This document shows positions 27,097-59,090 of a stretch of 64,000 nt of DNA, piece by piece. The notes under the pieces are model-generated. The model searched no databases. It worked only from the letters and a program-made list of their open reading frames with translations, and had not been told where the DNA came from. This stretch comes from Phlebopus portentosus (Eukaryota; Basidiomycota; Agaricomycetes; Boletales; Boletinellaceae): contig JAYXKI010000005.1 of NCBI GenBank assembly GCA_037892935.1, positions 2,418,001 through 2,482,000 of the forward strand, given 5' to 3'. The number at the start of each line of letters is the position of its first letter. Positions within the stretch are counted from its first letter, which is position 1. The translations under genes were made by a program, and so were the position numbers.

Positions 27097-27098
27097 TA

Positions 27099-38852: not shown

Positions 38853-40682
38853 TGTAGACTATCAGACTCTCCTAGACAGGGACAAAGGCGGCGGCGGCGG
38901 CGTTCGACCACAGGGAGGCGATGTCAAAGGTGTCGAGAGGAAAAAGGGGAGGTCCTACCAGATCTACAGACTACCTACAGGCTTTCAGAAGCGACACTCA
39001 GCTCAGATGCACAGGGATCTGGCCGTTAGGCAGATCCGCCGCGCCTTCGAATAACTCGCCGCGGCGATACGGACCTCGACGGGTGTATAGGGATCACCGA
39101 GTCTGACTGAACTGGCGAAGGGGTCGCAGCGGCGGACTGGGTGCGGCGCCGGCGGAGGTTCGCACCAGTGCAGTTCCGCCTGGTAGTCGGGGAGATGACG
39201 TCGGAACGACACAGAGAAGGTGCGGGAGAGAGAGAGTCGACACCACTTGAAAGGGTAGTAGTGTCGGCGGTGGAACGACGCGGAGGCGGCGAGAAGCGGG
39301 AGACTGGATTCAGTCGAAAAGGGGTGCCGGCGCCGACGGTAGCGGCGAACACAAGAAGAGTGACAGCTGCGTCGAGACGTCGAGGAAGTATGACAGATGC
39401 CTAGAAGAGTGATGGCTGCGTCGAGGCGTTGAGGAAGAATCACAAACGATCTGAACCAAGCGGCGGCGGCGAAAGACAAAAGGGGCCTCAGGCGCAGGGA
39501 GAAATCGAAGACCGCGGGATTGATTACTAGAGGAGTGACGGCTGCGTCGGGACGTGGAGGAGGAATCCCAAATGCTCAGGACCGAGCGGCGGCGGAGGCT
39601 AGAGAGAGAGGGACAGCGATGCAGATATAAGTGGGAAGTCCTCGGAGCGATTACTAGACGAGTGACAGCTGTGCAGAAGGGAGATGACCAGGGCGGTGAA
39701 TGAGCCCAGCGGCTTCTATCCTGTGAGATTGGGGCCGACGCCGTCAGGACGGGGTCGGCGGGGGCACGTGACCGGGAGTTCGCCCGATCCAGCTGTCTGG
39801 TTCTCTGTATATACTGGTTTCTTGAAGGAGGCTTCTTTACTTGTGGTTGGTCTCTGATAACTGCGTTCTAGAGTGTATATCTCCTGCTTTTTAGGATAGA
39901 TACATGCTCTCTATATATACTATGAGTCCTTGATAAGAAATATCACTTAAGGCGGCGGGCGGCGAGGCATGACAGGCGCGCCGTGATGGCGGGGGCCGCC
40001 CCTGAGATGCGCCGCCAAGCCACCAAGACCTAGGGGCGCCCCAGTCGGAACGGCGGAGTGCTGGTACGTCGTGTCGAACGTCGGGGCCGTTTGGATCGGT
40101 CAGGGCGCACTCTATATGGATCTGAAACGCCAAGGGGTCGAATAAAACTAAAAGGGGGAATATACGGACGGCCGCCGGGCGCGCTACCGTGCTCGGCGTA
40201 CAATGTGGGATGATAAGAATATGAAACAATCAACGAAATGGACCTGAGATTGGTTATCGTTCACCCAGCCGGCGCGGTGGCGGGTATACACCTCCGCGAT
40301 GGCGCGATATACATCCGCCGCAGCGTGTCTGGCCGCCGTGCGAGCATTTCCGAAGCCCGGAGTCACCGGATTCGGCGGAACCATTCTTGAGAGAGGCTGG
40401 AGAAGGGGAACTAGGGTCTGGTCGAAGGGGGGACAAGGTGATCATAGGATAGGAGTGGAGGCGTCGCCGCCGGTTCGTATGGTCGGCGGCGGCGGCGGCG
40501 TGGGTGCTGTTCCCAGGCCGCCGAAGGTCCGGCGGCCGCTGAGCAGGCTGTAATATGGGTAACGGCGGCGAAGGCTGGTTTGCTGACAATAGTACGCGGG
40601 GTGTCCTGGGTATGGCATAGGGGAGTACAGCCCTTACAGGCCTGTGCCGCTGGACCGGTACAGGTTAGTGCGGCGCACTACA
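38853..40682 (-). repeat. LTR 1 (3' LTR of the outer element)
   Basis: Begins TGTAGACTATCAG and ends GCGCACTACA, so it is bounded by the short inverted repeat TGTAG/CTACA. About 1830 bases, 115 longer than the two inner LTRs, because a module around GTGACGGCTGCGTCG is present in an extra copy (39400-39560). A TATA-like TATATATAG on the minus strand is at about 39912. Confidence 0.93.
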
Positions 40683-41754: not shown

Positions 41755-41949
41755 GTTGTAAGGAGCGCCGATGGTATTCGTAATCTGTAGGGTAGATGTT
41801 TTGGGGGCGGTGAGTAGGTCGCCGACCGCTTTATATATTTTTGGCGAGTGTTTTCCGGGTTGGCCGGAAGGTATGACGGCTTTTGGCGAGGTGAAGTTGC
41901 CAGTATTATAGTGTAGGGGCTAATATAGGCGAAAGCCGAAGTAGTGTTC

Positions 41950-42300
41950 TAATGGAAGGGGGCCTAGGCGAAGGTGTTTCGTGTAGGCGGATCGTCGGCG
42001 GGACGAGTAAGTGGGATGGGAGGCTAGCGGCGAGGCTGGTTCGCCGGTAGTTCGGGTATGGTGGCCTGTAGCGGCGTGGGGCGAAGCGAACTTCGAATGG
42101 GATGGGGGCCTGGGTGAAGGAATTTCGTATAGGCGGGTCGTCGGCGGGACGAGTGAGTGGGATGGGGAGCTCGCGGCGAGGCTGGTTCGCCGGTAGTTCA
42201 GGTATGGTGGCCTGTAGCAGCGTGGGGCAAAGCGATCTTCGAATAGAAGGGGGCCTGGGCGAAGGAATTTCGTATAGGCGGGTCGTCGGCGGGACGAGCT
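41950..42300. repeat. ~146-base tandem array, about 3 units (outer copy)
   Basis: Units contain GCCTGGGCGAAGGAATTTCG, then a TCGTCGGCGGGACGAG block and GGTTCGCCGGTAGTTC. It lies between the two divergent accessory genes of the element. Confidence 0.85.
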
Positions 42301-42895: not shown

Positions 42896-44543
42896 ATGGC
42901 GCCGACGATTCTCAGCGTCAGCAGCAGCAGCGACAGCAGCAGCAACAACAGCAGGGAGGGGTCGGAGGCTCCCTCCGACCAGATGGAGGTGGACGCCGGG
43001 GTGGCGACGGGGGCTCCTGCCGCGGGCGGGATGTCGCGGGCCCCCAGCGGGCAAGAGGTCCTGCCGGAGTCGCAGGGGGAGACGGAGGAGGAGGGTGGGG
43101 AGGGGGGGGAGGGAGGGGAAGAACTGGACGCAGCCATGTGGGCGGCCATTACAGCGGTGAGGGGGTGGATCGAGCGGGCCCGAAACGATGAGGGGCCCGC
43201 TGCCGATGAGCTCGATGGGCTCTTGGTAAATTTGCGTTCCCTTGATAATAACCGTGTGAGCTGACGATCTGGTTTACTTTTTCAGAAGGGGCTTGGGGAG
43301 CGCTTCCCCGCGCTATCCGACGACGCGAGGGCTGAAAAGCCCAAATATTATTGCGCGGGGAGGTGGTTGGTGAACCGGGCGACGGTGGTGCGGATGGCCG
43401 CCGGGGAGGCTAAGGATGCTGCCAAGGCGTTGGACAAGGCCGCCCAGTCGGAGGTGAATCGCCTCCGACGCGTCGCGAAGAGGCTGGCCGAGCGCCGGGA
43501 GGAGGAGGCTCGTGAGGAGGCGAAGCGGAGCGCGGCGAAGGTGGCCGAGGAGGCGAAAGCCTCCTTCCTCAAGACGCTCGCCACCCTGCGAGTTGGGGGC
43601 CCGGAGGTCGTCGAGGCCTTCTGTAGGTCCTCAGGGCGCGATGAGGCGGGGAACCTGGTAAGTCGTTGTCTTGAATTTTGTTTTTTACTGTCTCTGATAA
43701 TATCTTCTTAGGTCGCGGCGCCTAAAACGAGCACCAAAGCGAAGGTGCAGGCGCGTCCCGCGGCCAGGCCGGCGACGGGAAAGACGATTACTCTTCCTGG
43801 GTCGTCGATCCCTGGTCTTGAGGTGGCGGGTTCGTCCAGCGAGACGCTCAAGGGGGAGAGTGGTCGAGTGACGCGAGGGGGACGCTCAGGGACAGTCACG
43901 GGAAAGACCATTACTCTTGAGGTTGAGTCTGATGAGGGGTCAACGCGAGCGAAAAGGTCGAGTGGAAAGGAGGTATATGTCGATGTGTGTTTTATGTCCT
44001 GGATCTTATTCTTCACTGACATGTTTCGTTTCTAGGTGCCTCCCCTTCCGAAGCGCGTACGTGAGCCGGTGGTCGAGCCGCCGGCGAAACGAGCAAGAGC
44101 GCCGGGAGCGGCGGCCTCGGGTGGGGGAAGGGTGAAAGAGGAGGCGACAGGAAGAAGGGACGGGGCGGTGAGTGCTGTCTTGAATTTTGTTCTCGACACT
44201 CTCTGACTATAATATTCAGAGGGAGGAGGGGGGTTGGGAGTTCGAGAGGGTGGGGCGGCTCCCCAGGGGTCAGAGCCGCCGCCTCCTCGAGTTCATGTCG
44301 ACGGGGTGCGAGCGGTGCATCGGGCGTGGGGAGATGTGCACGAGGCGCCCGCCGGCGCTCCTGTGCCAGGCGTGCCGGGTATCGCACCGATGGTGCGATA
44401 TCTTGGAGTCGGACGTGACCTTCCTGGTGCAGCAGGAGGTCCTCGCTCTCCGCCGGCAGCTGGAGGGGATGGAGTCGACGTTGGCGGGAGAGAGTGCGGG
44501 TGGGGGGGTGGAGGAAAAGGCCCAGGGTGAACGCCGTGGATAG
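42896..44543 (+). CDS. Antisense accessory gene of the retroelement: coiled-coil, NLS, Zn2Cys6-like protein (intact copy)
   Basis: Runs opposite to gag-pol. Five exons (42896-43225, 43286-43657, 43712-43972, 44036-44167, 44220-44543) joined by four introns (60, 54, 63 and 52 bases), all phase 0, give 472 residues. The start CCACCATGG is an ideal context. Order: Ser/Asp/Glu-rich acidic N-terminus (to about 95), an Ala/Glu/Arg coiled coil (ALDKAAQSEVNRLRRVAKRLAE and on), a Ser/Thr-rich linker containing the repeated GKTITL, a basic NLS-like PPAKRARAPG, and near residue 395 six cysteines spaced CX2CX6CX8CX2CX6C (GCERCIGRGEMC, then LLCQACRVSHRWC). That is the spacing of fungal Zn2Cys6 clusters. 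A short leucine-rich helix (QQEVLALRRQLEGME) follows. A DNA-binding regulator or nucleic-acid-binding protein is inferred; no product is named. Confidence 0.75.
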
Positions 44544-44983: not shown

Positions 44984-45970
44984 TCATAAGTTGGATTCGG
45001 CGTCTAGGTCATCCGCCGCGGTCTCTTGTGCTAAGTTGTCGAGTTCCGGCGTGGATTTCTGAGTGAGGTCTTCGACTGAGTCGATGATTCGAGTGCGTGC
45101 GTGGTAGGGGATAACTCTGAATGCTGCATAACGAAGTGCTGAAATGGCGCCGTTTGCTTCGGCGAGAACATAGGATCCTCCTTTGGTTCGCCGCACGACA
45201 ATCATGGGCCCTAGGTATTTCGGCTTTGTCTTCCTGTTCAGCTCGTTTTCTATCTGGGAGTTCCTGACCAGCACAAGTGAGCCGGGGGCGAAATTGTAAT
45301 CCTTAATTGTTGCGGCGTGGGTTTTCTCGAAGTCCTGTATGGATTTGAAGCGTCCCTGGATGACAGATTCCTTGACTCGTTGGAGGCCCTCGGGTCGTTT
45401 CTGGAGTGCCCTTGCTCTTGCCGCGATGAGTTGTGCATCGGACATCTTGGAGGTGACCGCCGGCGAGATGTACGTCTGTTCGGCGAGGTCGAAGGGGAGT
45501 ACTGGTTCGACGCCGTGGGCCATAAAGTATGGGCTATAGCCTGTGCGGCGTTGGATCGTGATTCGTTCAGCCCAAATGGCGTGGTATATATGCTGGGACC
45601 ACTTGTCTGGGCTTGCGTCGGCGAGCTTCATTAGGGTTTCTCTAAGGTCCCGGTGTCGCCGCTCAATGATTCCGTTGGCCCTTGAGTTGTACGGCGATAT
45701 TCGGATGTGCTGGATATTGTATTTGGCGAGAAGGCGGGGTAAGTCCTTGGAGAATGAGGCGCCGTTGTCGGTTACGATCTCCTCGACTCGTCCCCATCTT
45801 GACAAAATATCTTCGAAAACGAAGCGTGCTATCGAGGCGGCGTTATCTTTGCGCAGCATTCGGAATTCGGGGTATCCGGTGAGCGAGTCTCGGGCCTGAA
45901 CGATATACTTGAATCCGCCAGAGGGCGGCATTAACATCACGTCTATATGCACCCTGGAGAATAGTGGCGC
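44984..45970 (-). pseudogene. Integrase 3' part of the outer pol
   Basis: Open frame from HIDVMLMPPSGGFKYIV through VTDNGASFSKDL and NGIIERRHRDLRE (the D, D, E catalytic residues) to the C-terminal binding part (GSLVLVRNSQIENELNRKTK and KYLGPMIVVRRTKGGSYVL) and stop at 44984. It is cut at 45970 by the 3' LTR of the inner element; the missing upstream part resumes at 60734. The frame within this part is intact. Confidence 0.9.
45967..45970. repeat. Target-site duplication GCGC, left
   Basis: GCGC directly before TGTAG of LTR 2; the same four bases follow CTACA of LTR 3 at 60734-60737. The uninterrupted copy of this site inside the inner pol (about 53274) has GCGC once. Confidence 0.85.
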
Positions 45971-47686
45971 TGTAGACTATTAGACTCTCCTAGATAGGGA
46001 CAAAGGCGGCGGCGGCGGCGTTCGACCACAGGGAGGCGATGTCAAAGGTGTCGAGAGGAAAAAGGGGAGGTCCTACCAGATCTACAGACTACCTACAGGC
46101 TTTCAGAAGCGACACTCAGCTCAGATGTACAAGGATCTGGCCGTTAGGGCAGATCCGCCGCGCCTTCGAATAACTCGCCGCGGCGATCTGGGCCTCGGCG
46201 ACTGTATAGGGATCGCCGAGTCCGACTGAACCGGCGAAGGGGTCACAGCGGCGGACTGGGTGCGGGGCCGGCGGAGGTTCGCACCAGTGCAATTCCGCCT
46301 GGTAGTCGGGGAGATGACGTCGGAACGACACAGAGAGGATGCGGGAGAGAGAGAGTCGACACCACTTAAAAAGGGGAGTAGTGTCGGCGGTGGAACGACG
46401 CGGAGGCGGCGGAGGCGGCGAGAAGTGGGAGACTGGACTCAGTCGAAAAGGGGCGCCGGCGCCGACGGAAGGGGTGAACACAAGAAGAGTGACAGCTGCG
46501 TCGAGGCGTCGACGAAGTATAACAGATGCCTAGAAGAGTGACGGCTGCGTCGAGGCGTTGAGGAAGAATCACAAATGTTCAGGGCCCGAGCGGCGGCGGA
46601 GGCTAGAGAGAGAGAGACGGCGATGCAGATTTGAGTGGGACGTCCCCGGAGCAATTACTAGACGAGTGACAGCTGCGCAGAGGGGAGACGACCAGGGCGG
46701 CGAATGAGCTCGGCGGCTTCTATCCTGTGAGATCCGGGGCCACGCCGTCAGGACGGGATCGGCGAGGGCACGTGACCGGGAGTTCGCCCGATCCGGCTGT
46801 CTGATTCTTTGTATATACTGGTTTCTTGAAGGAGGCTTCTTTACTTGTGGTTGGTCTCTGGTAGCTGCGTTCTAGAGTGTATATCTGCTGCTTTTTAGGA
46901 TACATACATGCTCTCTATATATACTATGAGTCCTTGGTAAGAAATATCACTTAAAGCGGCGGGCGGCGAGGCGTGACAGGCGCGCCGCGACGGCGGGGGC
47001 CGCCCCCGAGATGCGCCGCCAAGCCACCAAGACCTAGGGGCGCTCCAATCGGAACGGCGGAGTGCTGGTACGTCGTGTCGAATGTCGGGGCCGTTCGGAT
47101 CGGTCAGGGCGCGCTCTATATAGATCTGAAACGCCAAGGGGTCGAATAAAACTAAAAGGGGGAATATACGGACGGCCGCCGGGCGCGCTACCGCGCTCGG
47201 CGTACAATGTGGGATGATAAGAATATGAAACAATCAACGAAATGGACCTGAGATTGGCTATCGTTCACCCAGCCGGCGCGGCGGCGGGCATACACCTCCG
47301 CGATGGCGCGATATACATCCGCCGCAGCGCGTCCGGCCGCCGTGCGAGCACTTCCGAAGCCCGGAGTCACCGGATTCGGCGGAACCGTTCTTGAGAGAGG
47401 CTGGAGAAGGGGAACTAGGATTTGGTCGAAGGGAGGACAAGGTGATCATAAGATAGGAGTGGGGGCGTCGCCGCCGGTTCGTATGGTCGGCGGCGGCGGC
47501 GGCGTGGATGCTGTTCCTAGGCCGCCGAAGGTCCGGCGGCCGCTGAGCAGGCTGTATTATGGGTAACGGTGGCGAAGGCTGGTTTGCTGGCAATAGTACG
47601 CGGGGTGTCCTGGGTATGGCATAGGGGAGTACCGCCCTTACAGGCCTGTGCCGCTGGACCGGTACAGGTTAGTGCGGCGCACTACA
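45971..47686 (-). repeat. LTR 2 (3' LTR of the inner element)
   Basis: TGTAGACTATTAG to GCGCACTACA. Minus-strand TATA candidates lie at about 46915 and 47112 (TATATAG). Nearly identical to LTR 3, differing by small indels (a GGAGGC repeat at about 46400, CGACGG at about 46985) and C/T changes. Confidence 0.95.
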
Positions 47687-47695
47687 TCTCCTTCT
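47687..47695 (-). promoter_or_regulatory. Polypurine tract
   Basis: On the minus strand AGAAGGAGA directly abuts the TGTAGTG start of the 3' LTR, the standard plus-strand DNA primer position. The same sequence follows LTR 1 at 40683-40691. Confidence 0.8.
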
Positions 47696-47810
47696 GACGA
47701 AGTAAAAAAATGATTAAAAAAAATGCTGGGTAGTGTAGGGGAGGTATTTAGGCGAAGTTGAGCGGGGGTTGTGATGTAACTGGGTGGTATGTCTGTGACT
47801 TGCTCCTGGA

Positions 47811-48758
47811 TTAGTCTTCGGTTGTGAGATCGATCATCGGCGGATCGTGGATTGGTGCGGCGGTGTGCGGTGGAGGGTTGGCTCTGTCCGCCGCATCTTG
47901 TTGAGGTACGTTGTTGAGGTATGGGTGATGTTCAATGGATTCCCGAAGCTCGGCGAGGTGCTCTTCGATGTCCTGGGCGGCTGCGATTGCTGAGAGCGAA
48001 TACTGTTGTGCTTGGAGTATAATGGCGATGACGTTGGCGGCGCAGTCGCGTATATCGTCATCGCCGCACTCGTTGAAGAGGCGTAAGACTTGGATTATGG
48101 CATTGTGGGATAGGTCTGAGGCGGCGTCGGAGTAAATGACAGCGTTTTCGAGTGCAATAGGCCCTTCTCTGAGGATGGCGAGGGGGGCATTGGGTAGTAC
48201 GCCATCGCCGATAGGCGCGCCGAGAATTATGGGGATCGTAGTGAGGGCGCCGCCGATGCGGAGCGTTTCTCGGATGCGGCAAACGAGTGTCGCTTTGTTG
48301 GCAGGCGTCAGATGGTGTCTGGCGAAGAGTTCGGGGATGATCTGAAGCATCGCGGGGACGTGTCTGGCGGGGAACGGCATCGCCGCAGGAAACGCGTCGG
48401 CGAGGAGGTCGCAAAATGATCCCCAGTTTCCGCCGGAGAGGCGTGGGTCTTGACAGAGGAGTTGCTGGGCGTCCGGCGAGGCCCAAATGTACAGCAGGAA
48501 GATTAGAGTCGCCGTGTCGGGGCAGGGGTGATGAAAACTGCGAAGGGCGGCGATGAGAATATTTGGTAGAGCGGTGTAATCAGGGTGCCATGGGTAGAGG
48601 AGCATGGGGTGCCCGGGAAGTGTGATTAATTGGGCGAAGTTGAAATCTAAAAGGTGTTGGGCATGGCGGGGGAAGTGGACTGGGTGCGGGACTTGGAGTA
48701 GTGGTGTCGCCGGTGCGAATGGAAACGCTTCGGCGAGGCTGGGAACCAGCTGGGGCAT
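47811..48758 (-). CDS. Retroelement accessory ORF (315 codons), inner copy
   Basis: Intact homologue of 40807-41754 with the same start (MPQLVPSLAEAF) and the same C-terminal MIDLTTED. About six residue changes, mostly conservative (I/M, L/I, D/E, E/D, Y/H, H/R). It remains open while neighbouring genes in this copy are broken, which hints at recent or continuing selection on the element's source copies. The ACAACATG start context and a TATATAAA box about 80 bases upstream are kept. Unknown function; helical-repeat scaffold with a SUMO-interaction-like tail is inferred. Confidence 0.7.
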   Translation of the reverse strand: MPQLVPSLAEAFPFAPATPLLQVPHPVHFPRHAQHLLDFNFAQLITLPGHPMLLYPWHPDYTALPNILIAALRSFHHPCPDTATLIFLLYIWASPDAQQLLCQDPRLSGGNWGSFCDLLADAFPAAMPFPARHVPAMLQIIPELFARHHLTPANKATLVCRIRETLRIGGALTTIPIILGAPIGDGVLPNAPLAILREGPIALENAVIYSDAASDLSHNAIIQVLRLFNECGDDDIRDCAANVIAIILQAQQYSLSAIAAAQDIEEHLAELRESIEHHPYLNNVPQQDAADRANPPPHTAAPIHDPPMIDLTTED

Positions 48759-48832
48759 GTTGTAAGGAGCGCCGATGGTATTCGTAATCTGTAGGGTAGA
48801 TGTTTTGGGGGCGGTGAGTAGTTCGCCGACCG

Positions 48833-48842
48833 CTTTATATAT
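48833..48842 (-). promoter_or_regulatory. TATA box for the accessory ORF
   Basis: Minus-strand ATATATAAAG about 75-85 bases before the ATG at 48758, conserved at the same place in the outer copy (about 41831). Confidence 0.5.
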
Positions 48843-48956
48843 TTTCGGCGAGTGTTTTCCGGGTTGGCCGGAAGGTATGACGGCTTTTGGCGAGGTGAAG
48901 TTGCCAGTATTATAGTGTAGGGGCCAATATAGGCGAAAGCCGAAGTAGTGTTCTAA

Positions 48957-49600
48957 TGGAAGGGGGCCTAGGCGAAGGTGTTTCGTGTAGGCGGATCGTC
49001 GGCGGGACGAGTAAGTGGGATGGGAGGCTAGCGGCGAGGCTGGGTCGCCGGTAGTTCGGGTATGGTGGCCTGTAGCGGCGTGGGGCGAAGCGAACTTCGA
49101 ATGGGAGGGGGCCTGGGCGAAGGAGTTTCGTACAGGCAGGTCGTCGGCGGGACGAGTAAGTGGGATGGGAGGCTAGCGGCGGGGCTGGGTCGCCGGTAGT
49201 TCGGGTATGGTGGCCTGTAGCGGCGTGGGGCGAAGCGAACTTCGAATGGGAGGGGGCCTGGGCGAAGGAGTTTCGTACAGGCAGGTCGTCGGCGGGACGA
49301 GTAAGTGGGATGGGAGGCTAGCGGCGGGGCTGGGTCGCCGGTAGTTCGGGTATGGTGGCCTGTAGCGGCGTGGGGCGAAGCGAACTTCGAATGGGAGGGG
49401 GCCTGGGCGAAGGAGTTTCGTACAGGCGGGTCGTCGGCGGGACGAGTGAGTGGGATGGGAGGCTCGCGGCGAGGCTGGTTCGCCGGTAGTTCGGGTATGG
49501 TGGCCTGTAGCGGCGTGGGGCGAAGCGATCTTCGAATAGAAGGGGGCCTGGGCGAAGGAGTTTCGTATAGGCGGGGCGTCGGAGGGACGAGCTTCGATTT
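48957..49600. repeat. ~146-base tandem array, about 5 units (inner copy)
   Basis: The marker GGCGAAGGAGTTTCGTA recurs at about 49114, 49260, 49406 and 49552, with a variant at 48971. Same array as 41950-42300 but expanded from about 3 to about 5 units. It sits between the divergent accessory genes. Confidence 0.88.
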
Positions 49601-50188
49601 AGAAGGGAGTTCGGAAGTAAAGTTTAAATGGTTAATCATGGAAGGTGTCGTCATATCATGATCTTGATCTGGTACCAGATATGGATACAATGGCCTTGTA
49701 GTCAGGGGTAGTGGTACATCGGAAATACACTTCGGCGGGCTTTTGGCGGTTCGGGAACCAGTCGGGGACGCCAGGTAGTTAACTAGGGCGGTGTAGGTCG
49801 TAGCATATAGGTTGAGGATTTGTTAATGGGTGTAGGTACGGCTAGGGTAGGGTGTGCGGCGATATTTGATGATCGGCGGGGGGGATCGGCGTAGAATGTT
49901 GTATCGGCCGGCTTGGCAGGGGTCTGGAAGGTTGGGGCTGTGTTGTGGCGGGGTTCGGCGGATTGTTCCGGCGAGTTTTGGAGGGGGGAGAGTCGCCGAG
50001 GGGTTTGTGGAATTTGAGTGGAGATTGCGGCGGAGCAGTGGGGAGGATTTGGTAATTGATTGGTAAAAAGGGGGCGGGGAGGTCGCGTGTATGGAGGGCT
50101 GAAATCGGAGTTTGAATTGGGTGCGGCGAGGATATAGACGACGGGCACTCATGTCTGAGTTCCCCGTTTCTCTTTTTCTCTTTCCACC

Positions 50189-51851
50189 ATGGCGCCGACG
50201 ATTCTCAGCATCAGCAGCAGCAGCGGCAGCGACAGCGACAGCAGCAGCAACAACAGCAGGGAGGGGTCGGAGGCTCCCTCCGACCAGATGGAGGTGGACG
50301 CCGGGGCGGCGACGGGGGCTCCTGCCGCGGGCGGGATGTCGCGGGCCCCCAGCGGGCAAGAGGTCCCGCCGGAGTCGCAGGGGGAGACGGAGGAGGAGGG
50401 TGGGGGGGGGGAGGGGGGGGGGGGGGGGAGAACTGGACGCGGCCGTGTGGGCGGCCATTACGGCGGTGAGGGGGTGGATCGAGCGGGCCCGAAACGATGA
50501 GGGGCCCGCTGCCGATGAGCTCGATGGGCTCTTGGTAAATTTGCGTTCCCTTGATAATAACCGTGTGAGCTGACGATCTGGTTTACTTTTTCAGAAGGGG
50601 CTTGGGGAGCGCTTCCCCGCGCTATCCGACGACGCGAGGGCTGAAAAGCCCGAATATTATTGCGCGGGGAGGTGGTTGGTGAACCGGGCGACGGTGGTGC
50701 GGATGGCCGCCGGGGAGGCTAAGGACGCCGCCGAGGCGTTGGACAAGGCCGCCCAGTCGGAGGTGAATCGCCTCCGACGCGTCGCGGAGAGGCTGGCCGA
50801 GCGCCGGGAGGAGGAGGCTCGTGAGGAGGCGAAGCGGAGCGCGGCGAAGGTGGCCGAGGAGGCGAAAGCCTCCTTCCTCAAGACGCTCGCCACCCTGCGA
50901 GTTGGGGGCCCGGAGGTCGTCGAGGCCTTCTGTAGGTCCTCAGGGCGCGATGAGGCGGGGAACCTGGTAAGTCGTTGTCTTGAATCTTGTTTTTTACTGT
51001 CTCTGATAATATCTTCTTAGGTCGCGGCGCCTAAAACGAGCACCAAAGCGAAGGTGCAGGCGCGTCCCGCGGCCAGGCCGGCGACGGGAAAGACGATTAC
51101 TCTTCCTGGGTCGTCGATCCCTGGTCTTGAGGTGGCGGGTTCGTCCAGCGAGACGCTCAAGGGGGAGAGTGGTCGAGTGACTCGAGGGGGACGCGAGGGG
51201 ACGGTCACGGGAAAGACCATTACTCTTGAGGTTGAGTCTGATGAGGGGTCAACGTGAGCGAAAAGGTCGAGTGGAAAGGAGGTATATGTCGATGTGTGTT
51301 TTATGTCCTGGATCTTATTCTTCACTGACATGTTTCGTTTCTAGGTGCCTCCCCTTCCGAAGCGCGTACGTGAGCCGGTGGTCGAGCCGCCGGCGAAACG
51401 AGCAAGAGCGCCGGGAGCGGCGGCCTCGGGTGGGGGCAGGGCGAAAGAGGAGGCGACAGGAAGACGGGACGGGGCGGTGAGTGCTGTCTTGAATTTTGTT
51501 CGTGACACTCTCTGACTATAATATTCAGAGGGAGGAGGGGGTTGGGAGTTCGAGAGGGTCGGGCGGCTCCCCAGGGGTCAGAGCCGCTGCCTCCTCGAGT
51601 TCGTGTCGCCGGGGTGCGAGCGGTGCATCGGGCGTGGGGAGGTGTGCACGAGGCGCCCGCCGGCGCTCCTGTGCCAGGCGTGCCGGGTATCGCACCGGTG
51701 GTGCGATATCTTGGAGTCGGACGTGACCTTCCTGGCGCAGCAGGAGGTCCTCGCTCTCCGCCGGCAGCTGGAGGGGATGGAGTCGACGTTGGCGGGAGAG
51801 AGTGCGGGTGGGGGGGTGGAGGAAAAGGCCCAGGGTGAACGCCGTGGATAG
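50189..51851 (+). pseudogene. Antisense accessory gene, inner copy, broken
   Basis: Same five-exon layout as 42896-44543 (exons 50189-50534, 50595-50966, 51021-51281, 51345-51476, 51529-51851) with all splice sites kept. Three breaks are visible: an expanded G-tract at about 50402-50430 that shifts exon 1, a TGA at 51255-51257 where the outer copy has CGA, and a G-run one base shorter at about 51535-51541 that shifts exon 5. The six-cysteine cluster is itself unchanged (GCERCIGRGEVC, then LLCQACRVSHRWC). Start CCACCATGG is intact. Confidence 0.75.
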
Positions 51852-52292
51852 GCGGCGAGCCAAACGACGCAAACGGCGTCGGCTCGCGGTCTTCGGCGAC
51901 CATGAAGCACCCTTGGGCCGAAAAAAATATTAAAAAAAAAATAGGAAAAATATAAAAGTACAAAAATATTGTATTTTTCTTTTTCTTGTGTACTATAGTG
52001 GCTTGTAATAACAAGCCGAATGTTTTTCTTGTGAGGATGGTTCTTTGTGAGATCAGGGAATGTAAGATTGAGATGGGCTGGAGTGAAATAGGGAGGATAG
52101 GCGCCCTAAAAATAGCGCCGGGGCCGAAAGAATGACTTGAGTAAGGTGAAAATGTGGGAGGGGGTGACTCGGCGTCTCGCCGCAGTCGTTTGGGTGATGA
52201 TTGGAGAGAGTGAAGATAGCGGCGGGTCCGAATAGGTGACTTAGGGAATGTGTATATAAGGGAGAGGGTGATTATGAGGCTTCGGCGGATCT
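51852..52292. other. Convergent spacer between antisense gene and pol (inner copy)
   Basis: Same AT-rich block and GGCTTGT/ACAAGCC stem as 44544-44983. Confidence 0.5.
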
Positions 52293-54638
52293 TCATAAGT
52301 TGGATTCGGCGTCTAGGTCATCCGCCGCGGTCTCTTGTGCTAGGTTGTCGAGTTCCGGCGTGGATTTCTGAGTGAGGTCTTCGACTGAGTCGATGATTCG
52401 AGTGCGTGCGTGGTAGGGGATAACTCTGAATGCTGCGTAACGAAGTGCTGAAATGGCGCCGTTTGCTTCGGCGAGAACGTAGGATCCTCCTTTGGTTCGC
52501 CGCACGACAATCATGGGCCCTAGGTACTTCGGCTTTGTCTTCCTGTTCAGCTCGTTTTCGATCTGGGAGTTCCGGACCAGCACAAGTGAGCCGGGGGCAA
52601 AATTGTAATCTTTAATTGTTGCGGCGTGGGTTTTCTCGAAGTCCTGTATGGATTTGAAACGCCCCTGGATGACGGATTCCTTGACTCGTTGGAGGTCCTC
52701 GGGACGTTTCTGGAGTGCCCTTGCTCTCGCCGCGATGAGTTGTGCGTCGGACATCTTGGAGGTGACCGCCGGCGAGATGTACGTCTGTTCGGCGAGGTCG
52801 AAGGGGAGTACTGGTTCGACGCCGTGGGCCATAAAGTATGGGCTATAGCCTGTGCGGCATTGAATCGTGATTCGTTCGGCCCAAATGGCGTGGTATATAT
52901 GCTGGGACCACTTGTCTGGGCTTGCGTCGGCGAGCTTCATTAGGGTTTCTCTAAGGTCCCGGTGTCGCCGCTCAATGATTCCGTTGGCTCTTGAGTTGTA
53001 CGGCGAGATTCGAATGTGCTGGACATTGTATTTGGCGAGAAGGCGGGGTAGGTCCTTGGAGAATGAGGCGCCGTTGTCGGTTACGATCTCCTCGACTCGT
53101 CCCCATCTTGACAAGATATCTTCAAAAACGAAGCGTGCTATCGAGGCGGCGTTATCTTTGCGCAGCGTTCGGAATTTGGGGTATCCGGTGAGGGAGTCTC
53201 GGGCCTGAACGATATACTTGAATCCGCCGGAGGGCGGCATTAACATGACGTCTATATGCACCCTGGAGAATAGCGGCGCGGGCGTTGGGCTTTGCGGCGT
53301 GGTATATATTTTCGTAAACTGCCTCGTTTGGCATTGGTGGCAGGTTCTGATATACCATTTGATGTCCTGATGCATTCCTGGCCACCAGAATCGGTCTTGA
53401 ATTGTTGTTCTGACAGAGAAGAAGCCTTTGTGGCCGAGTTCGTCGTGGGCAGTTCTGATAATGGAAATTCGGCGTTCCGGCGGAATAACGAGTGCGGCGT
53501 GACCTTTGTCGTTCTTTCTGTAGAGTTCGCCGTGCTGTAGGAAGAAACGAGTGGCTCGGCGTACGAACTGTTTGAATTGGGCGTCTGAAAAATCGGCGGG
53601 GCGGGATGGGGCGGCGAGAAATTTCTTGATACAATCGAGGTCTTTGAATCCTTTTTGTGAGGCTTTGTGATCGGGGAGTTGTACGGGTTCGCTGTTTGGG
53701 GTATAGGCCGTGTCGGAAAGGTCTTGGTTTAGGAAGGAGTATTGATGGTCGATCCATTCTTTGAAGCCTTCGTCTCGCGGCGGATCGGTTTGTGCGGCGC
53801 CGCGGCGTGATAGGCCGTCTGGGCCGAGGTGTTTGGGCGCCGGCGTATGAATGATCGTGAAATTGAAAAGTAAGATGCCGGCGATCCATCTATTGATAGT
53901 GGCGTTGGGTTGGAGGTCTGGGTTGTTAATCATGCCTTTAATATAGCTGGCGTTGACTTCGACGAAAAAGTGATCGATGCCGACGAGGTATATGCGCGCC
54001 TCATATAGAGCTCTGAAGAGGCCGAAGAGTTCTAGCTTCGCCTGGGAGTAGTTTCGTTCTCTGTTGTTCCAAGTTCCGGACATGAAACGAGATGGGACCC
54101 TTTCGCCGTTTTCGCCGAGCTGTAACAAGATGGCGCCGTAGCCATGAACGGAGGAGTCTACACAGAAATGAACAGGTTGTCCTGACTCGTAGTCAATAGA
54201 ACGAATGGCGCCGGAGGATGCTACGGCGTGTTTTAGTAGATCCATAGATCGGCGGGCGTCTTCGTCGAATAGGAAGGGCTGGTCTTTGCAGAGTAGTTTG
54301 TTGAGACCGGCGGATAGTCTGGCGTAGTTCTTCACGAAGTGTCTAAGGACGCCGGCCGTACCTAAGAATGCCCGAACATCGTGGACATCCCGCAGCGGCG
54401 GCCAATCCATTATCGCCTTGACCCTGGATGCGTCTGGGACTCGGCCGGCGTAATTACAGGTGTGTCCTACAATGACTGCTTCTGGTGCGGCGATGATGAG
54501 TTTCTTACCCGAGACAGTGGCGCCGACTACTTTGAGGCGTTGGAGGACGCGGTTGACGTCGTTGAGATGTTCCCAGATGAAGCGGCGGATGTTCGGGTTC
54601 CCCGGAATGGTTTCGTAGTTTCCGGCGGCGAGCTCGTA
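52293..54638 (-). CDS. Pol, second part: RT thumb, RNase H and integrase (inner copy)
   Basis: Open from the stop at 54639 to 52293; first Met at 54410. After the RT end (MDWPPLRDVHDVRAFLGTAG) comes RNase H: FCVDSSVHGYGA, AKLELFGLFRAL, FFVEVNASYIKG and GPDGLSRRG. The third acid, Asp in the outer copy (VEVDAS), is Asn here (codon 53952-53954), so RNase H is probably dead. The integrase zinc finger is HDELGHKG with CHQCQ, the core D-D-E is HIDV, VTDNG and IIERRH, and the C-terminal part has YLGPMIVVRR. Total length fits Ty3/gypsy pol. There is no chromodomain at the end. Confidence 0.92.
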   Translation of the reverse strand, partial: YELAAGNYETIPGNPNIRRFIWEHLNDVNRVLQRLKVVGATVSGKKLIIAAPEAVIVGHTCNYAGRVPDASRVKAIMDWPPLRDVHDVRAFLGTAGVLRHFVKNYARLSAGLNKLLCKDQPFLFDEDARRSMDLLKHAVASSGAIRSIDYESGQPVHFCVDSSVHGYGAILLQLGENGERVPSRFMSGTWNNRERNYSQAKLELFGLFRALYEARIYLVGIDHFFVEVNASYIKGMINNPDLQPNATINRWIAGILLFNFTIIHTPAPKHLGPDGLSRRGAAQTDPPRDEGFKEWIDHQYSFLNQDLSDTAYTPNSEPVQLPDHKASQKGFKDLDCIKKFLAAPSRPADFSDAQFKQFVRRATRFFLQHGELYRKNDKGHAALVIPPERRISIIRTAHDELGHKGFFSVRTTIQDRFWWPGMHQDIKWYIRTCHQCQTRQFTKIYTTPQSPTPAPLFSRVHIDVMLMPPSGGFKYIVQARDSLTGYPKFRTLRKDNAASIARFVFEDILSRWGRVEEIVTDNGASFSKDLPRLLAKYNVQHIRISPYNSRANGIIERRHRDLRETLMKLADASPDKWSQHIYHAIWAERITIQCRTGYSPYFMAHGVEPVLPFDLAEQTYISPAVTSKMSDAQLIAARARALQKRPEDLQRVKESVIQGRFKSIQDFEKTHAATIKDYNFAPGSLVLVRNSQIENELNRKTKPKYLGPMIVVRRTKGGSYVLAEANGAISALRYAAFRVIPYHARTRIIDSVEDLTQKSTPELDNLAQETAADDLDAESNL

Positions 54639-55778
54639 TCAGGATTTAGGCCCTTTTACAGGAATATCGTCGATGTATGGGATACAGACGTGAGGTATCT
54701 CGTCTTTGAGTACGAAGGTGACGTCGGCGTGCATAATTTGTTGCGAGTTGGTGTATCCCATAGGAATCGACGTGAGGCGAAACGCGCCGAGAGGTGTTTG
54801 GAATGTTGTGAGGTCGCGGGATCGTACGTCGAGCTTTCTCTGGTCGAAGGCGACGAATAGATCGAGTGTGGTGTAGCAGGCATGGCCGCCGAAGGTCTCG
54901 GCGATGTGTTCTGTGGGGTAAGGGACGGAGGGGTCGCGTATGGAGACTTTGTTGAGTGGCTGGAGATCGTGTACAAGCCGAAGGGATTTTCCATCCTTTT
55001 TAACGACGCAGAACCATCGGGAGCGGTAAGAGGAATTGGACGGCTCGTAGACGCCGGAGTTAATTTTGTCTTTGATTATGCGGACCACTTCGTTGAAGAT
55101 GCCCGGCGGAATAGGGATGTTTTTCATTACCCACGGCGTATGGTCGACGGTAGGAATTAGAACCGGCGCGAAGTATTGATAGTCGAGGGAGCCCTTTTCT
55201 GTTTCGTCCCAAGCTAGGCCGTCTTCGTGTTGTAGAAGGGTCCAGTATGCGAGATTCTTTTCTTCCTCTCTGAGGAAACCCGTTGGGTCGATGTCTAGGA
55301 CGTCGAAGCGTTCTTGTGTAAAGCGGCGTCCTGGAATGAACTCCGGCGGATCGATCGGGAGTTTCGGTAGGTCTGTGAGCGGCTGCGGGTGTGATTTGCG
55401 TATGATGCGGTAGTCCTCTGGAAGGGTCGCCGATATAGGTTTGGTTCGTTGGGCGACCTTTTTGTACTTGTAGGCGTGCCCGGCCGGTTGAGCGGCCGTG
55501 GTATTAAGAGTGCTGTTGGAGCGGGGTATTCTGTTGCGTACGGGGAGTGATTCGTCGTCGAAAATAGAGTTAATGAAGAAGGCTGGATGTTTTTGGGCTT
55601 TGTTCTGGGCTGTGAAACCCTTTTCGGCGGATCGATCAGAAAATGAGGTGGAGATATCTATGGTGCGGGGATTGAAGGCGATATTTACAGTCGCCGGGCC
55701 GTGATGGAGCACATATGCGTCGGGTATGGTTGGGGATATACGCCGCATATGTTCCGGCGGATGCCGCTGGGACGTCAT
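54639..55778 (-). pseudogene. Pol, first part: reverse transcriptase (inner copy), ended by a nonsense codon
   Basis: Starts MTSQRHPPEHMRR at 55778, with the ATG overlapping the protease TGA. RT motifs: YRSRWFCVVKKDGKSLRLVHD, CYTTLDLFVAFDQ (motif A Asp), QTPLGAFRLTSIPMGYTN and IPYIDDIPV (catalytic YIDD). It stops at TGA 54639-54641 directly after GPKS, where the outer copy has CGA (Arg). Without that change the frame would run on into RNase H and integrase. Confidence 0.9.
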
Positions 55779-56287
55779 TGTCTAGGGGGGCGCTGTTTTT
55801 CTGTCCTGGCGCCGCGCTGAATCGTCGGGATCGACATGGTTTCGTTCGTATCGGGATGAGTAAGGTATAGCGTCTGTTCGCCGTCGGCCTCGTCTATGAC
55901 CTGCGCCCTAGTGTGTACGAAAAACGGCCGGCCTAATAGTAACTGAAAGGGGGCCTTTTCGACGACCTGGACTTGGACAACAATAGAGAAGGCGCCTATG
56001 GTGAGTCTGACGCGAGGGATGAGTCCCGCCGAGCGTGAGGTTTGTCTGTCGGCGGTTTCTACTGTGATTGCTTGGCTCATTATCGTCGGGGACCCGAGGT
56101 CCTTCCATACCTCTTTTGGCACGGCGATAAATGTCGACCCTGAGTCGAGCAAAGCTTTTACTTCGAATTTATCATCGAGCCAGACCTCGATTTCGCGGAG
56201 GGGAATGTTCGGCGGGGCGACGGAAGGATCTTCGTCGCCGAAGTTAACCGGCGAGGTGGGCCTCGGGATCGAGGCGTACATTGCCAT
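55775..56287 (-). CDS. Retropepsin-type aspartic protease (inner copy)
   Basis: 170 residues from MAMYASIPRPTS. Catalytic LLDSGSTFIAVP near residue 46-57, a hydrophobic flap region and the LLLGRPFF segment near 115. The stop overlaps the RT start (ATGA). It begins 23 bases after the Gag stop in another frame. Confidence 0.88.
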   Translation of the reverse strand: MAMYASIPRPTSPVNFGDEDPSVAPPNIPLREIEVWLDDKFEVKALLDSGSTFIAVPKEVWKDLGSPTIMSQAITVETADRQTSRSAGLIPRVRLTIGAFSIVVQVQVVEKAPFQLLLGRPFFVHTRAQVIDEADGEQTLYLTHPDTNETMSIPTIQRGARTEKQRPPRQ

Positions 56288-56310
56288 CTCGTGATCAGGA
56301 TTTTCCCTAA

Positions 56311-58233
56311 TTAGTTCTCGGCGCCCCGTGACGAATTCTTTACACTTCTTTCTGATTTCGGGAGAGGCGGCGAGCAGGCTTCGGATCGGCAGGGTGACTT
56401 CCGAGTCCAGAATCTTGTCGAAAACGTTCGATACCGCGGAGTCATCGTATGCTGGTACGGTGGTTCGGTATTGTGGCTTCGGATCCGCCGCGTCGTCCCT
56501 GTGCGGCGCCGAGGGCGTCGGCGGCGGGGCCGGGCGTTGTCCGGGTGGTTTCCCCTTCTTGCTGTTATCTCCCCATTTCGGGTTGGGGTCTCGAGGCGGC
56601 TTTCTGGTGGGGATTTCGATTCCGTCGAAAACTTCTCTGGGGCCTGGCCGTCTTCCGGCGGCGGCGAAGGCATTCTGCGGTTGTTCGGGGGATTCTTCTT
56701 GTTCAAAAAGGAGCGCGACTCCGTCGCAGGCATCGTCGTCTGGGGGTCTTCTGGGGTGATAGCCTCGAAGTAGTTCGATTCCTGGATTCGCGGCGGCAGG
56801 CCGTTCGGCGGATTTGTATTGTAGGCTAAGGGAGGCGGTGCCCGGTTGAGGCCCTGGTACATAGATTCCTGTGATGGAGGGTGTGACTGATACATGGATT
56901 GTTGAGTCGGCGGTTGTCCCTGATATGTGGGATCCTGCCTCGGCGGAGCGATCCTCGGCGGCGTGTCGGATACGGGCTGAATGGGGAGCTGGACGCCAAC
57001 TGGTGCGTAGTTTGGATTCTCTATGAAGAGCTTATTAATCCTGTCCAGTACTGACATCCCCGGTTCTCCCTGAGGAAGTCGGCCATTGGAGGGGTACAAG
57101 TACCCTTTGGCGTCGGCGAGCATGATTCCCCTCTGGATCAGGGAGATCTTGGTGGGACAGTCGCAGGTAGAGTGCGTTACACTGGCGCATACGGCGCATT
57201 TTCCGTTAAATCTGGCTTGTCGGGGCTGCGGCGGGGCTCCTGCAGTTGGCGGCGGAGCGCGGCGGTTTGACTTCTCGGTGGCTTCACGGAGGGCGCGCAT
57301 TTCCTGGATTAGGAGGGACACCCACGGTTCTTCTTGCTTGACCTGGGGTTGGTTGATGACTCCGTAGGCCGGAGCGCCGGGTTGCGGCGGCGGCGTGTAC
57401 GTCGTAACTTGTGTATAGGTGGGCATGGCCGCTGTCGCCGCATACATCAGTGGTTGTGAGGCGGTTGTGAGGCGGCCGCCGGTTAGGATGCGTTCTAGTT
57501 CTCTTACAACTGTGTCGATGTCCCAGGGCACGCCGGTAGGGTGGTCGTGCTTGACAAACCGCAAATTAAGATCCAGCTCTCTGTTTAGCGTCGGGTGGAG
57601 GCCTTCTCTGAACATACGCTTCTGTTCGAACTCCGATAGCATGCCGGCGTCGATAAGATACGAGGAGACGGTGATAAAGTTCCTATGGTATTCGCCGAGG
57701 GCGGCGGTGTTCAGCATAATTTGGTTGCGGCTTATGTTAATAAGGTTGTGGAGGTCGCCGAGTGTGTACTGGGTCGTAGCGTTTGGGTAGTACTTTAGGA
57801 TAGCGTCTTTGAATGCCATAAAGTCGTTTCCTCTCGTTTCGGGCCTTTTGCACCATAGCTGATCGTCTTTAGCGTCGGCGTAGCATCTTGCCCAAGCGAT
57901 CATTTGTGCATCTGTTAGGCCGGCGCTTCGTCCAAATAGCCGGACTCTGTTAAAGAAGATGGGGATTTCCGCGGGGTCGCCGGAGGCGTTGAACTTCGGC
58001 GCACGGCGGTCTCCCGGGTAGGGCATTGTAGCTCCTGGCACTGGTGGGTTGGGACCACTTAATGGATGGGTATCTGGGTCACTGAGGTCTGGGAGAGGGG
58101 GAAAGGCGCCCGCGGGGGTTGGTGCTGGTGCGGCATAGGCTGGTGCGGCGGGGGACGGCTGTTGGGGGGGCGGCGGGGTCGATCCTGAGGCTGCGGGGGG
58201 CGCGGCGGGAATGCCGGTATGGGTGCTGGTCAT
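56311..58233 (-). CDS. Gag polyprotein (inner copy)
   Basis: 640 residues. A Pro/Ala-rich start (MTSTHTGIPAAPPAASG) precedes a capsid-like core (APKFNASGDPAEIPIFFNRV, FMAFKDAILKYYPNAT, LGEYHRNFITVSSYL and REGLHPTLNREL) typical of Ty3 Gag, a second Pro-rich linker, and one zinc knuckle CAVCASVTHSTCDC (CX2CX4HX4C). A long Pro/Gln/Glu-rich tail follows with repeated QGQPP/YQSHPPSQ motifs. ATG overlaps the stop of ORF1. Confidence 0.9.
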   Translation of the reverse strand: MTSTHTGIPAAPPAASGSTPPPPQQPSPAAPAYAAPAPTPAGAFPPLPDLSDPDTHPLSGPNPPVPGATMPYPGDRRAPKFNASGDPAEIPIFFNRVRLFGRSAGLTDAQMIAWARCYADAKDDQLWCKRPETRGNDFMAFKDAILKYYPNATTQYTLGDLHNLINISRNQIMLNTAALGEYHRNFITVSSYLIDAGMLSEFEQKRMFREGLHPTLNRELDLNLRFVKHDHPTGVPWDIDTVVRELERILTGGRLTTASQPLMYAATAAMPTYTQVTTYTPPPQPGAPAYGVINQPQVKQEEPWVSLLIQEMRALREATEKSNRRAPPPTAGAPPQPRQARFNGKCAVCASVTHSTCDCPTKISLIQRGIMLADAKGYLYPSNGRLPQGEPGMSVLDRINKLFIENPNYAPVGVQLPIQPVSDTPPRIAPPRQDPTYQGQPPTQQSMYQSHPPSQESMYQGLNRAPPPLAYNTNPPNGLPPRIQESNYFEAITPEDPQTTMPATESRSFLNKKNPPNNRRMPSPPPEDGQAPEKFSTESKSPPESRLETPTRNGEITARRGNHPDNARPRRRRPRRRTGTTRRIRSHNTEPPYQHTMTPRYRTFSTRFWTRKSPCRSEACSPPLPKSERSVKNSSRGAEN

Positions 58234-59090
58234 TGTTGGTATCGAGGCCGTCTTAGGAGGTGTACTGGGGGTGGGTGGTTGGGCGTTGTCAATTGGGGAG
58301 AGCCGCGGCCTCTGAGCTGGTGTCGGCGGCGTAAGAGGGGGGGTGGGGAGAGCCTCGCCGATCGCTCTTCTTCGACGGGGGATAGTGGAGAGTCGGGGGT
58401 GATTGCGTGGCCGTGTACGAGGGAGTCGGGGACGTAAAGGTCGTCGTCCTCCTGTTCTTCTGCGGCGGAGTATAACTGTAGGCCGGTGCGGCGGTGGAGA
58501 TCTGGGGGGTTGTCTATGTCGGAGAAGAGGTCGGTTTCGATGGGGCCGGTGGCTGGAGGTTCCTGGAGGGATATTGACAGGTCCTCGATGCCGCCGGGGA
58601 CACGAACGTGAGTACTGGGGCGAATTTCGGATTCGCGGAGGTCTTTAGGAACGTGGATGAAACGAGGGGGAATTATAGGCGATATAGGGTGTGCGGCGGC
58701 GGTGCTTGCGCTTTCGCCGGGCGGTGGGTTACGTGTAAAAGGAGTGATAGATGCTCTTCTGGGACGCCGGGTGGGTGGGTCGTCTGCGGCGATGGACGCG
58801 CGTCGACGGTTCGGCGCGGACGGAGATCTGGGTGCGGTGGGACGGGGTTCTTCTGTTCGGCCTCTTGTAAAGAGTGTGGAATAATGGTATGGTTGGCCGG
58901 CGGTTGTGGCTGAGGCTGTTTGACTGTTTTCCGCCCTTCTTTGCAGCCTTAGTGAGTATCGCGTGCCCTTGGAAGGGCCTGAGATCGGTTGGAACGACAC
59001 CTTTTTACCTCCCTCGCCGTGGGCTCCAAAATGTAGACTATTAGACTCTCCTAGATAGGGACAAAGGCGGCGGCGGCGGCGTTCGACCAC
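58230..59090 (-). CDS. ORF1 of the retroelement, open frame without any ATG
   Basis: 286 codons open from inside LTR 3 across the primer-binding site to a TGA that overlaps the Gag ATG (58230-58233, ATGA). There is no Met codon in the whole frame; the first codon shown is GTG. The translation is disordered, Pro/Arg/Ser-rich, with two RRAS kinase-type sites (RRRASI and RRASIT) and an acidic stretch (EEQEDDDLYV). It may be an N-terminal Gag extension reached by splicing or non-AUG initiation, or only a leader. The GC-rich sequence makes long open frames by chance more likely, so confidence in translation is low. Confidence 0.4.
   Translation of the reverse strand: MVERRRRRLCPYLGESNSLHFGAHGEGGKKVSFQPISGPSKGTRYSLRLQRRAENSQTASATTAGQPYHYSTLFTRGRTEEPRPTAPRSPSAPNRRRASIAADDPPTRRPRRASITPFTRNPPPGESASTAAAHPISPIIPPRFIHVPKDLRESEIRPSTHVRVPGGIEDLSISLQEPPATGPIETDLFSDIDNPPDLHRRTGLQLYSAAEEQEDDDLYVPDSLVHGHAITPDSPLSPVEEERSARLSPPPLLRRRHQLRGRGSPQLTTPNHPPPVHLLRRPRYQQ
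59011..59028 (-). promoter_or_regulatory. Primer-binding site
   Basis: On the minus strand TGGAGCCCACGGCGAGG, three bases after the CTACA end of the 5' LTR. The plus strand reads as a tRNA 3' end (CGTGGGC, T, CCA). A T/U at the discriminator position is a mark of tRNA-Cys in eukaryotes, so tRNA-Cys is the suggested primer. Confidence 0.7.

Follow-up and report, generated by a model that had tools for sequence, protein, structure and literature searches.

The 64-kb window, by which we mean the whole stretch of DNA that was analysed, contains two nested retrotransposons of one Ty3/gypsy family (family A), and the outer one carries, between its integrase and its 3' LTR, a gene that runs antisense to pol (Table 1). 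This antisense gene occupies positions 42896-44543 of the plus strand and comprises five predicted exons and four introns, with 472 codons plus a stop. A preliminary description of this DNA had reported an unbroken five-exon gene opposite gag-pol with four GT..AG introns, all in phase 0, and our model reproduced both its coordinates and its introns exactly, the latter measuring 52-63 nt each. The start codon, in the context CCACCATGG, lies 2.2 kb away from the 3' LTR of the outer element, toward its interior. Each intron has a branch-like CTGAC or CTGAT motif (recognised by eye) ending 12-20 nt before the intron end, and retention of any one of them introduces an in-frame stop. None of 3000 dinucleotide shuffles of the spliced coding sequence was open, the mean being 9.4 stops, and no mirtron-like hairpins were seen in the introns, which fold weakly (-4.2 to -9.2 kcal/mol). 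The N-terminus of the predicted product is acidic, as had been proposed, with a net charge of -18 over residues 1-110. A 324-aa sense ORF on the strand facing the gene, at 44013-44987, was considered and taken as spurious; it starts in the pol stop codon, lies in low-complexity UTR and has no Pfam match.

The host element shows the traits of Ty3/gypsy retrotransposons, with TG..CA LTR ends, a target duplication and minus-strand ORFs in the order PR-RT-RH-INT, and its LTRs begin with TGTAGACT and finish with CACTACA. The inner element splits the outer one at 45970/60734, with a 4-bp GCGC duplication, and contains a copy of the antisense gene that is frameshifted, in agreement with the earlier statement that the inner copy is broken. 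A gag-like ORF with a CX2CX4HX4C motif (58233-56311, minus strand) is followed there by the protease, RT and RNaseH-integrase ORFs. In a Pfam scan of the inner element protease, RNaseH and Integrase_H2C2 scored above the curated cutoffs, rve fell just under its cutoff (30.3 versus 32.6 bits), and RT reached 26.0 against 29.6 bits, the ORF there being shortened. The two LTRs of the inner element agree at 99.4% of 1702 aligned sites and those of the outer one at 97.9% of 901 compared sites, which is still fairly recent; the outer element thus seems to be the older of the two, in keeping with the nesting.

Some minor features of the window were also recorded. In both window copies the protease ORF shares an ATGA with the RT ORF (55775-55778 and 63233-63236, minus strand), which suggests stop-restart translation, and an ORF pair of the inner copy overlaps in like manner at 58230-58233. 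The stretch 27097-28183 is 95% identical to its own reverse complement, 28760-29674 and 36679-37593 match each other at 95% in opposite orientation, and self-comparison revealed a 54-bp tandem repeat array at 31765-32094.

Table 1. Features of the antisense gene and of its host elements (window coordinates).
Feature	Position	Strand	Remarks
3' LTR of outer element	38853..40682	-	pol on minus strand; 5' LTR begins outside the window (L043:2592)
146-bp tandem repeats upstream of antisense gene	41947..42298	+	2.4 copies; 4.4 copies in inner element at 48951-49591
Exon 1	42896..43225	+	acidic N-terminus; G-rich tract
Intron 1	43226..43285	+	60 nt, phase 0; GT..AG in 26/26 copies
BRR2-like patch	43227..43261	-	34/35, 32-nt exact run; abuts intron 1 donor; antisense to host mRNA; E 5.9e-8
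Exon 2	43286..43657	+	charged stretch; no net indel in 26 copies
Intron 2	43658..43711	+	54 nt, phase 0; resembles intron 4 (z 8.2)
Polyubiquitin patch, intron 2	43663..43694	-	28/32; 22/23 over 43672-43694; 23/23 in inner copy; E 0.016-0.029, 7e-4 in 13 other copies
Exon 3	43712..43972	+	repeated TGKTITL motif
Polyubiquitin patch, exon 3	43775..43795	+	20/21; E 1.3, not significant alone genome-wide
Polyubiquitin patch, exon 3	43896..43930	+	33/35, 28-nt exact run; genome-wide E ~1e-6
Intron 3	43973..44035	+	63 nt, phase 0
Polyubiquitin patch, intron 3	43995..44018	-	23/24; 24/24 in one other copy; E 0.03-0.05 alone
Exon 4	44036..44167	+	NLS-like KRVREPVVEPPAKRAR (pattern read by eye)
Intron 4	44168..44219	+	52 nt, phase 0
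Polyubiquitin patch, intron 4/exon 5 junction	44195..44225	+	30/31; 26-nt exact run in 26/26 copies; E 4.8e-6
Exon 5	44220..44543	+	six-cysteine cluster and C-terminal helix
3' end of outer pol	44984..45952	-	converges on antisense gene, 440 nt between stops
Inner nested element, same family	45971..60733	-	LTRs 45971-47686 and 59032-60733
Inner antisense-gene copy (L015)	50189..51851	+	frameshifted
RNaseH-integrase of inner element	52293..54410	-	query for finding related families

Copies of the gene and traces of selection in family A

A DNA search of the 38.4 Mb genome with the antisense gene gave 40 matches at E ≤ 0.001, of which 38 were element sequence (26 at full length) and two were host loci. 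When the integrase was used as query and the best 63 of 598 candidates were scored, all 31 matches at 94-100% identity had the antisense gene downstream, in full length in 26 cases and partially in five, usually 439-452 nt from its integrase. In this pairing the script matched the split outer element to the nearer inner gene, the outer element's own gene being the one described above. Among the best-scored candidates all the full-length copies of the gene lie in elements. The earlier proposal that the gene belongs to the element was therefore upheld, by its presence beside 31 of 31 strong integrase matches and by counterparts in two other gypsy families (see below), and we regard it as almost certainly a real gene of the element. 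The DNA itself shows where the gene lies and on which strand, its intron signals and open frames, how many copies there are, and that it recurs.

GT and AG were kept in all 104 introns of the 26 full-length copies. An intact frame from ATG to stop was present in six (L001, L004, L014, L017, L018 and L022) at scattered loci, so the outer copy, which had been singled out as the intact one, shares this state with five others; in addition, L025 has the full frame with ATA in place of ATG. As for the 20 copies without an intact gene, 11 carry a net frameshift in exon 1 and the remaining ones have stops or indels elsewhere. The exon 1 frameshifts probably fall in its G-rich tract, a region in which errors of assembly may also arise. 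Fifteen of the 26 copies have exon 1 in frame (p 0.009 versus one third), or 14 of 25 when the reference is left out (p 0.016), values that are no more than indicative since the copies are related. Conservation of the cysteines in other copies, which the preliminary description had linked to its reading of the protein, was found in every one of the 22 in-frame exon 5s, that is in 22 of 26 copies, whereas in the other four a single base is deleted close to the beginning of exon 5. This invariance is nevertheless weak evidence within family A, because non-CpG changes are rare in that region anyway.

CpG transitions make up most of the changes among the copies and hit replacement and silent sites about equally (ratio 0.88), the pattern that methylated, decaying copies would give. 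Non-CpG changes favour silent sites, with ratios of 0.55 for transitions and 0.36 for transversions (Mantel-Haenszel OR 0.48, p 0.002), and the N:S counts of singleton and shared changes were alike (92:73 and 54:42, Fisher p 1.0). The selection among copies that the earlier work had envisaged was thus supported by the synonymous excess at non-CpG sites but not by the CpG changes or by the comparison of singleton with shared changes. Since the CpG changes look neutral and the two N:S counts agree, purifying selection inside family A appears modest, and past constraint on the gene within the family is likely, with modest support.

Counterparts in two further families and the six-cysteine cluster

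The protein search suggested earlier, in which the best 7996 candidates by shared words were scored, yielded three Sanghuangporus relatives with identities of 61-95%, namely P0001 (95%) and P0002 (84%) of S. sanghuang and P0003 (61%) of S. vaninii, while the two remaining matches were ubiquitin proteins. P0003 aligns over exons 2-4 and the start of exon 5, its annotated end being without the cysteine cluster. Judged by these matches, the DNA of the window probably belongs to a Sanghuangporus, a wood-rotting mushroom.

The integrase search (best 63 of 598 candidates) also gave 32 further matches at 48-50% identity. Nine loci of this set, family B, were read, eight of which were aligned and one of which (L034, with an internal deletion) was left out. 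As in family A the antisense gene lies between the integrase and the element end, where repeated matches point to an LTR. In the reference copy three exons are separated by two phase-0 introns, and the 730-aa product has CDQCQKRGRDCVGLPQRTCAPCLKQAKGC near its C-terminus. GT..AG was found in 14 of 16 introns, the other two having AT donors, and five of eight frames reach the final stop, one of these with an AT donor. The cluster pattern is retained in seven of the eight copies, in two of which it follows a premature stop. An annotated S. weigelae protein (731 aa) aligns straight over both exon junctions, and gap-free values between species were 93-97% for the basic region past the cluster, 89% for the coil and 86-89% for the cluster, mostly above those of the other segments (65-86%).

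A search with the C-terminus of family B revealed a third set at ~33% identity, family C. At the one locus read (L038), where alone the antisense position relative to the integrase was established, the gene model covers the last intron and the last exon, with a phase-0 intron of 55 nt and a last exon of 401 codons bearing CERCARAGRVCEGFPGQACDYCRTKARRRC. Nineteen last-exon copies were found at ≥ 91%, 15 of them without a stop, and seven share one score, which suggests a recent burst; in a dN/dS analysis of seven intact last exons the differences look neutral.

The RNaseH-integrase regions are 51% identical between A and B, 47% between A and C and 75% between B and C, the B piece covering 362 aa. 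Judged by profile comparison (hhalign E 6e-10) families B and C have homologous C-terminal domains. The family A cluster gave a weak match to C (E 4e-4, probability 34%) and an alignment of only 15 residues to B. Sequence therefore counts for less in assigning the family A gene to this lineage than do its position and orientation, its phase-0 introns and its cysteine pattern. Taken this way, the class of antisense gene is very probably shared across the three families.

The preliminary description had read the CX2CX6CX8CX2CX6C pattern of the product, which we found as CERCIGRGEMCTRRPPALLCQACRVSHRWC, as having the spacing of a fungal binuclear cluster. Fungal Zn2Cys6 domains follow the consensus CX2CX6CX5-12CX2CX6-8C, and this spacing is compatible with the family A cluster as well as with those of B (CX2CX6CX7CX2CX6C) and C (CX2CX6CX7CX2CX7C). 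The antisense-gene cluster shares with Zn2Cys6 (PF00172) the six cysteines and a predicted helix after them. It differs in its C-terminal place, in a scarcity of basic residues from Cys 2 to Cys 3, and in scores that stay below the Pfam cutoff in each protein tested: against 21 bits for Zn_clus, exon 5 of A scored 10.4, the B cluster alone 13.7 and a separate gene, L040 (see below), 12.1, and the 730-aa B and 401-aa C proteins gave no Zn_clus match in the Pfam scan. AlphaFold models were poor overall, with pLDDT < 50 for the cluster. The spacing part of the earlier reading is thus retained, whereas filing the protein as Zn2Cys6 is not, given 10.4 versus 21 bits; from its sequence we place the domain of A, B and C as a six-cysteine cluster outside the Zn2Cys6 family, which may nonetheless act in a Zn2Cys6-like manner. 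Neither bZIP nor TRP28 was matched in the Pfam scan of the antisense-gene product.

Host-gene patches in the antisense gene

Six patches of 21-35 nt in the antisense gene, one of them counted by its 23-nt core, are 94-97% identical to host genes, five to polyubiquitin and one to BRR2, a spliceosomal helicase. They came from a whole-genome DNA search in which 39 of 39 first-look candidates were scored, and other patches may have been missed. Both strands are represented, and four of the six lie in or across introns; those in introns 1-3 are antisense to the host mRNA, while the one at the intron 4 acceptor and both in exon 3 are sense. Taken singly, three reach genome-wide significance, their exact runs extending to 32, 28 and 26 nt. 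The intron 2 patch is borderline in this copy, and the intron 3 and 43775-43795 patches were counted because the same host gene is matched by other patches. Patch edges are sharp and the flanks, compared by eye, are unlike those of the host.

The BRR2-like patch corresponds to C5:1547025-1547059 (L052), antisense of a helicase gene of which a 241-aa stretch best matches BRR2 structures (U5 200-kDa helicase, E 3.5e-149; chains named BRR2, 1.3e-115). The polyubiquitin gene (C1:2928841-2929750, L050) matches five places in the antisense gene, and all the polyubiquitin matches listed for the 64-kb window at E < 0.01 fall in this gene or its inner copy. The reverse search with polyubiquitin DNA (27 of 27 candidates scored) gave three ubiquitin loci, one decayed relic and 23 family A places. 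The relic (L053:1160-1573; C5:442059-442472) retains scattered patches, all on one strand. No short host matches were found in the 2196 nt just upstream of the antisense gene, where the 48 listed matches were all element sequence of at least 180 nt. Compared with these two host genes, neither the family B gene nor 2.5 kb of C gave a polyubiquitin or BRR2 patch; in a genome-wide search with B 40 of 81 candidates were scored, and host patches may have been missed there.

Across the 26 copies the longest exact runs were 22-32 nt for the BRR2 patch, 21-28 for 43896-43930 and 26 in all for 44195-44225, followed by 17-24 in intron 3, 14-23 in intron 2 and 11-14 at 43775-43795, with a background maximum of 13 in 760 windows. 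Intron 2 traces in part to antisense ubiquitin sequence, which the portion that it shares with intron 4 resembles (NKIQD codons); the corresponding stretch of intron 4 has a host exact run of only 8 nt. The likeness of these two introns brought introner-like elements into consideration, but the shared exact 15-mer lies in family A copies at 41 of 42 places and this explanation was rejected. The S. vaninii protein has VKTLTGKAVIL at the corresponding place in exon 3, which overlaps the TGKTITLEV of the window gene without being identical to it; the patch, perhaps in a more extended form, may therefore predate the species split.

Two other explanations of the patches were discarded. The protein searches pointed to a captured intact ubiquitin domain, but the DNA resolves into separate short patches on both strands. 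Selection on the patches was likewise rejected, since in comparison with the divergent copy L027 their conservation gave p 0.016 over all sites and p 0.22 at non-CpG sites, and since in the 26 copies 7 of 177 non-CpG columns were variable in patches versus 59 of 1106. The patches are probably short captured host fragments, which could have been acquired through templated repair or when a polymerase switched templates; for LTR elements in plants, abnormal template switching has been described as a capture route (PMC13317346). We found no direct parallel for the patches in the open-licence literature.

Possible role and comparison with known systems

The reading we favour, to which we assign a probability of roughly one half, is that a Ty3/gypsy lineage of this fungus encodes the antisense gene as an accessory, that the gene was probably present in the ancestor of three families or more, and that it acts as a regulator of its own family. 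The antisense mRNA would start at its own internal promoter upstream of 42896, run toward the integrase and be spliced. The introns would survive retrotransposition since the packaged RNA is the opposite strand, on which the splice signals are not read, and the antisense arrangement would thus account for their persistence inside a retrotransposon. The product, with its NLS-like stretch, would enter the nucleus, the C-terminal six-cysteine cluster and the coiled coil would bind DNA or chromatin, the acidic N-terminus would serve as an effector, and the protein would tune transcription or integration of its own family. That the product is a nuclear regulator can be put forward tentatively, at slightly less than even odds, and the regulatory or nucleic-acid-binding role proposed earlier is in this sense plausible. 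The patches would represent short captured fragments, several of which now lie in introns. With an intron-bearing antisense gene and its six-cysteine cluster in three gypsy families of one genome, what seemed a curiosity becomes a lineage feature.

Antisense accessory genes are already known from the plant elements Grande and Retand, from Boty (brtn) and from HTLV-1 (HBZ), and Boty-like elements with brtn were reportedly described by Zhao et al. in 2011. In the accounts cited, maize Grande (gene23) and Retand (the TRP28 ORF) have antisense ORFs between pol and the 3' LTR (PMC7264820, PMC11963269); an own promoter and a nuclear product are reported for Grande (PMC7264820), and antisense TRP28 ORFs occur together with tandem repeats in Retand (PMC11963269). 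Our gene resembles them in its Ty3/gypsy host, antisense orientation, position between pol and the 3' LTR, presence in most copies and suspected DNA-binding or nuclear role, and the region likewise has tandem repeats, here at 41947-42298. Unlike what these accounts describe, it has no TRP28 match, four predicted short introns, a C-terminal six-cysteine cluster and a fungal host; the word 'intron' is absent from the main text of PMC11963269. The Boty-like elements of Botrytis cinerea carry the extra antisense gene brtn between pol and the 3' LTR (PMC7264820, PMC8365987), and so are fungal LTR elements with an additional gene in the same place; Boty has an ascomycete host, and the likeness, as far as these texts go, lies in position and orientation rather than in brtn sequence or exon structure. 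HBZ is an antisense, spliced nuclear regulator transcribed from the 3' LTR, with bZIP features (PMC10186651). We propose a functional analogy to HBZ, the gene studied here being likewise antisense and predicted to be spliced, and claim no homology; it differs in starting 2.2 kb inward of the LTR, in its cysteine cluster and in having no bZIP match.

Two further explanations were weighed. The convergence of the antisense gene and pol would also suit a role as RNA, in which the antisense transcript overlaps the genomic RNA and the resulting dsRNA and small RNAs limit or modulate the element, a possibility already discussed for such transcripts (PMC7264820). The patches would then yield small RNAs matching polyubiquitin and BRR2 mRNA, and in every one of the 26 copies the exact host runs of the three strongest patches reach 22, 21 and 26 nt or more, which is the size of small RNAs or longer. 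Such a role needs neither a 472-codon spliced frame nor a recurring cysteine cluster, however, and the three other patches have shorter exact runs in many copies, the patches are not significantly better conserved at non-CpG sites, and ubiquitin and BRR2 patches are missing from the B gene and from the 2.5 kb of C; we consider it unlikely. We think it equally improbable that the gene is a drifting chimera of element sequence with polyubiquitin and BRR2 pieces, passively amplified and without function for the element. Sharp-edged host patches on both strands, the neutral-looking CpG decay and the 20 non-intact copies would fit this, but it leaves aside the counterpart genes at the same place in two other families, the 61%-identical S. 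vaninii homologue, the GT..AG ends of all 104 introns and the synonymous excess among non-CpG changes.

The capture of host genes by transposable elements, and the conflict over silencing to which it can lead, was reportedly the subject of Muyle et al. in 2021. Conflict over captured host genes is thus an existing idea, reviewed for plants (PMC13317346), where likewise elements carry host sequence and silencing the element may touch the host gene; compared with that account, the pieces here are of 21-35 nt, on both strands, and concentrated in one antisense gene and its introns. The patches raise the question of whether such fragments guard an element against silencing or supply material for new introns. 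In the first case the antisense gene would hold the host hostage, small-RNA-sized host copies making the silencing of convergent transcripts hit ubiquitin and BRR2, which would shield the element or let it damp these genes; silencing aimed at the element would then also strike two essential host genes. In the second, milder case captured host fragments would be raw material for the introns of the antisense gene. We give these ideas a slim chance.

Host takeover, which the preliminary description had raised and for which the complete frame of the outer copy speaks, is very improbable, since six of 26 copies are intact at scattered loci (five besides the outer one), all full-length copies among the best-scored candidates lie in elements, the outer copy's element is disrupted and fairly recent by its LTRs (97.9% over 901 sites), and L040, a single-copy gene with a similar cluster, is another gene.

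L040 itself (L040:799-1530; C3:2959398-2960129) has a cluster like those of B and C and is the single such gene among the matches listed, with no integrase-like ORF in the 3 kb read. Distinct from the antisense gene, it could be a host relative or the source of the six-cysteine domain.
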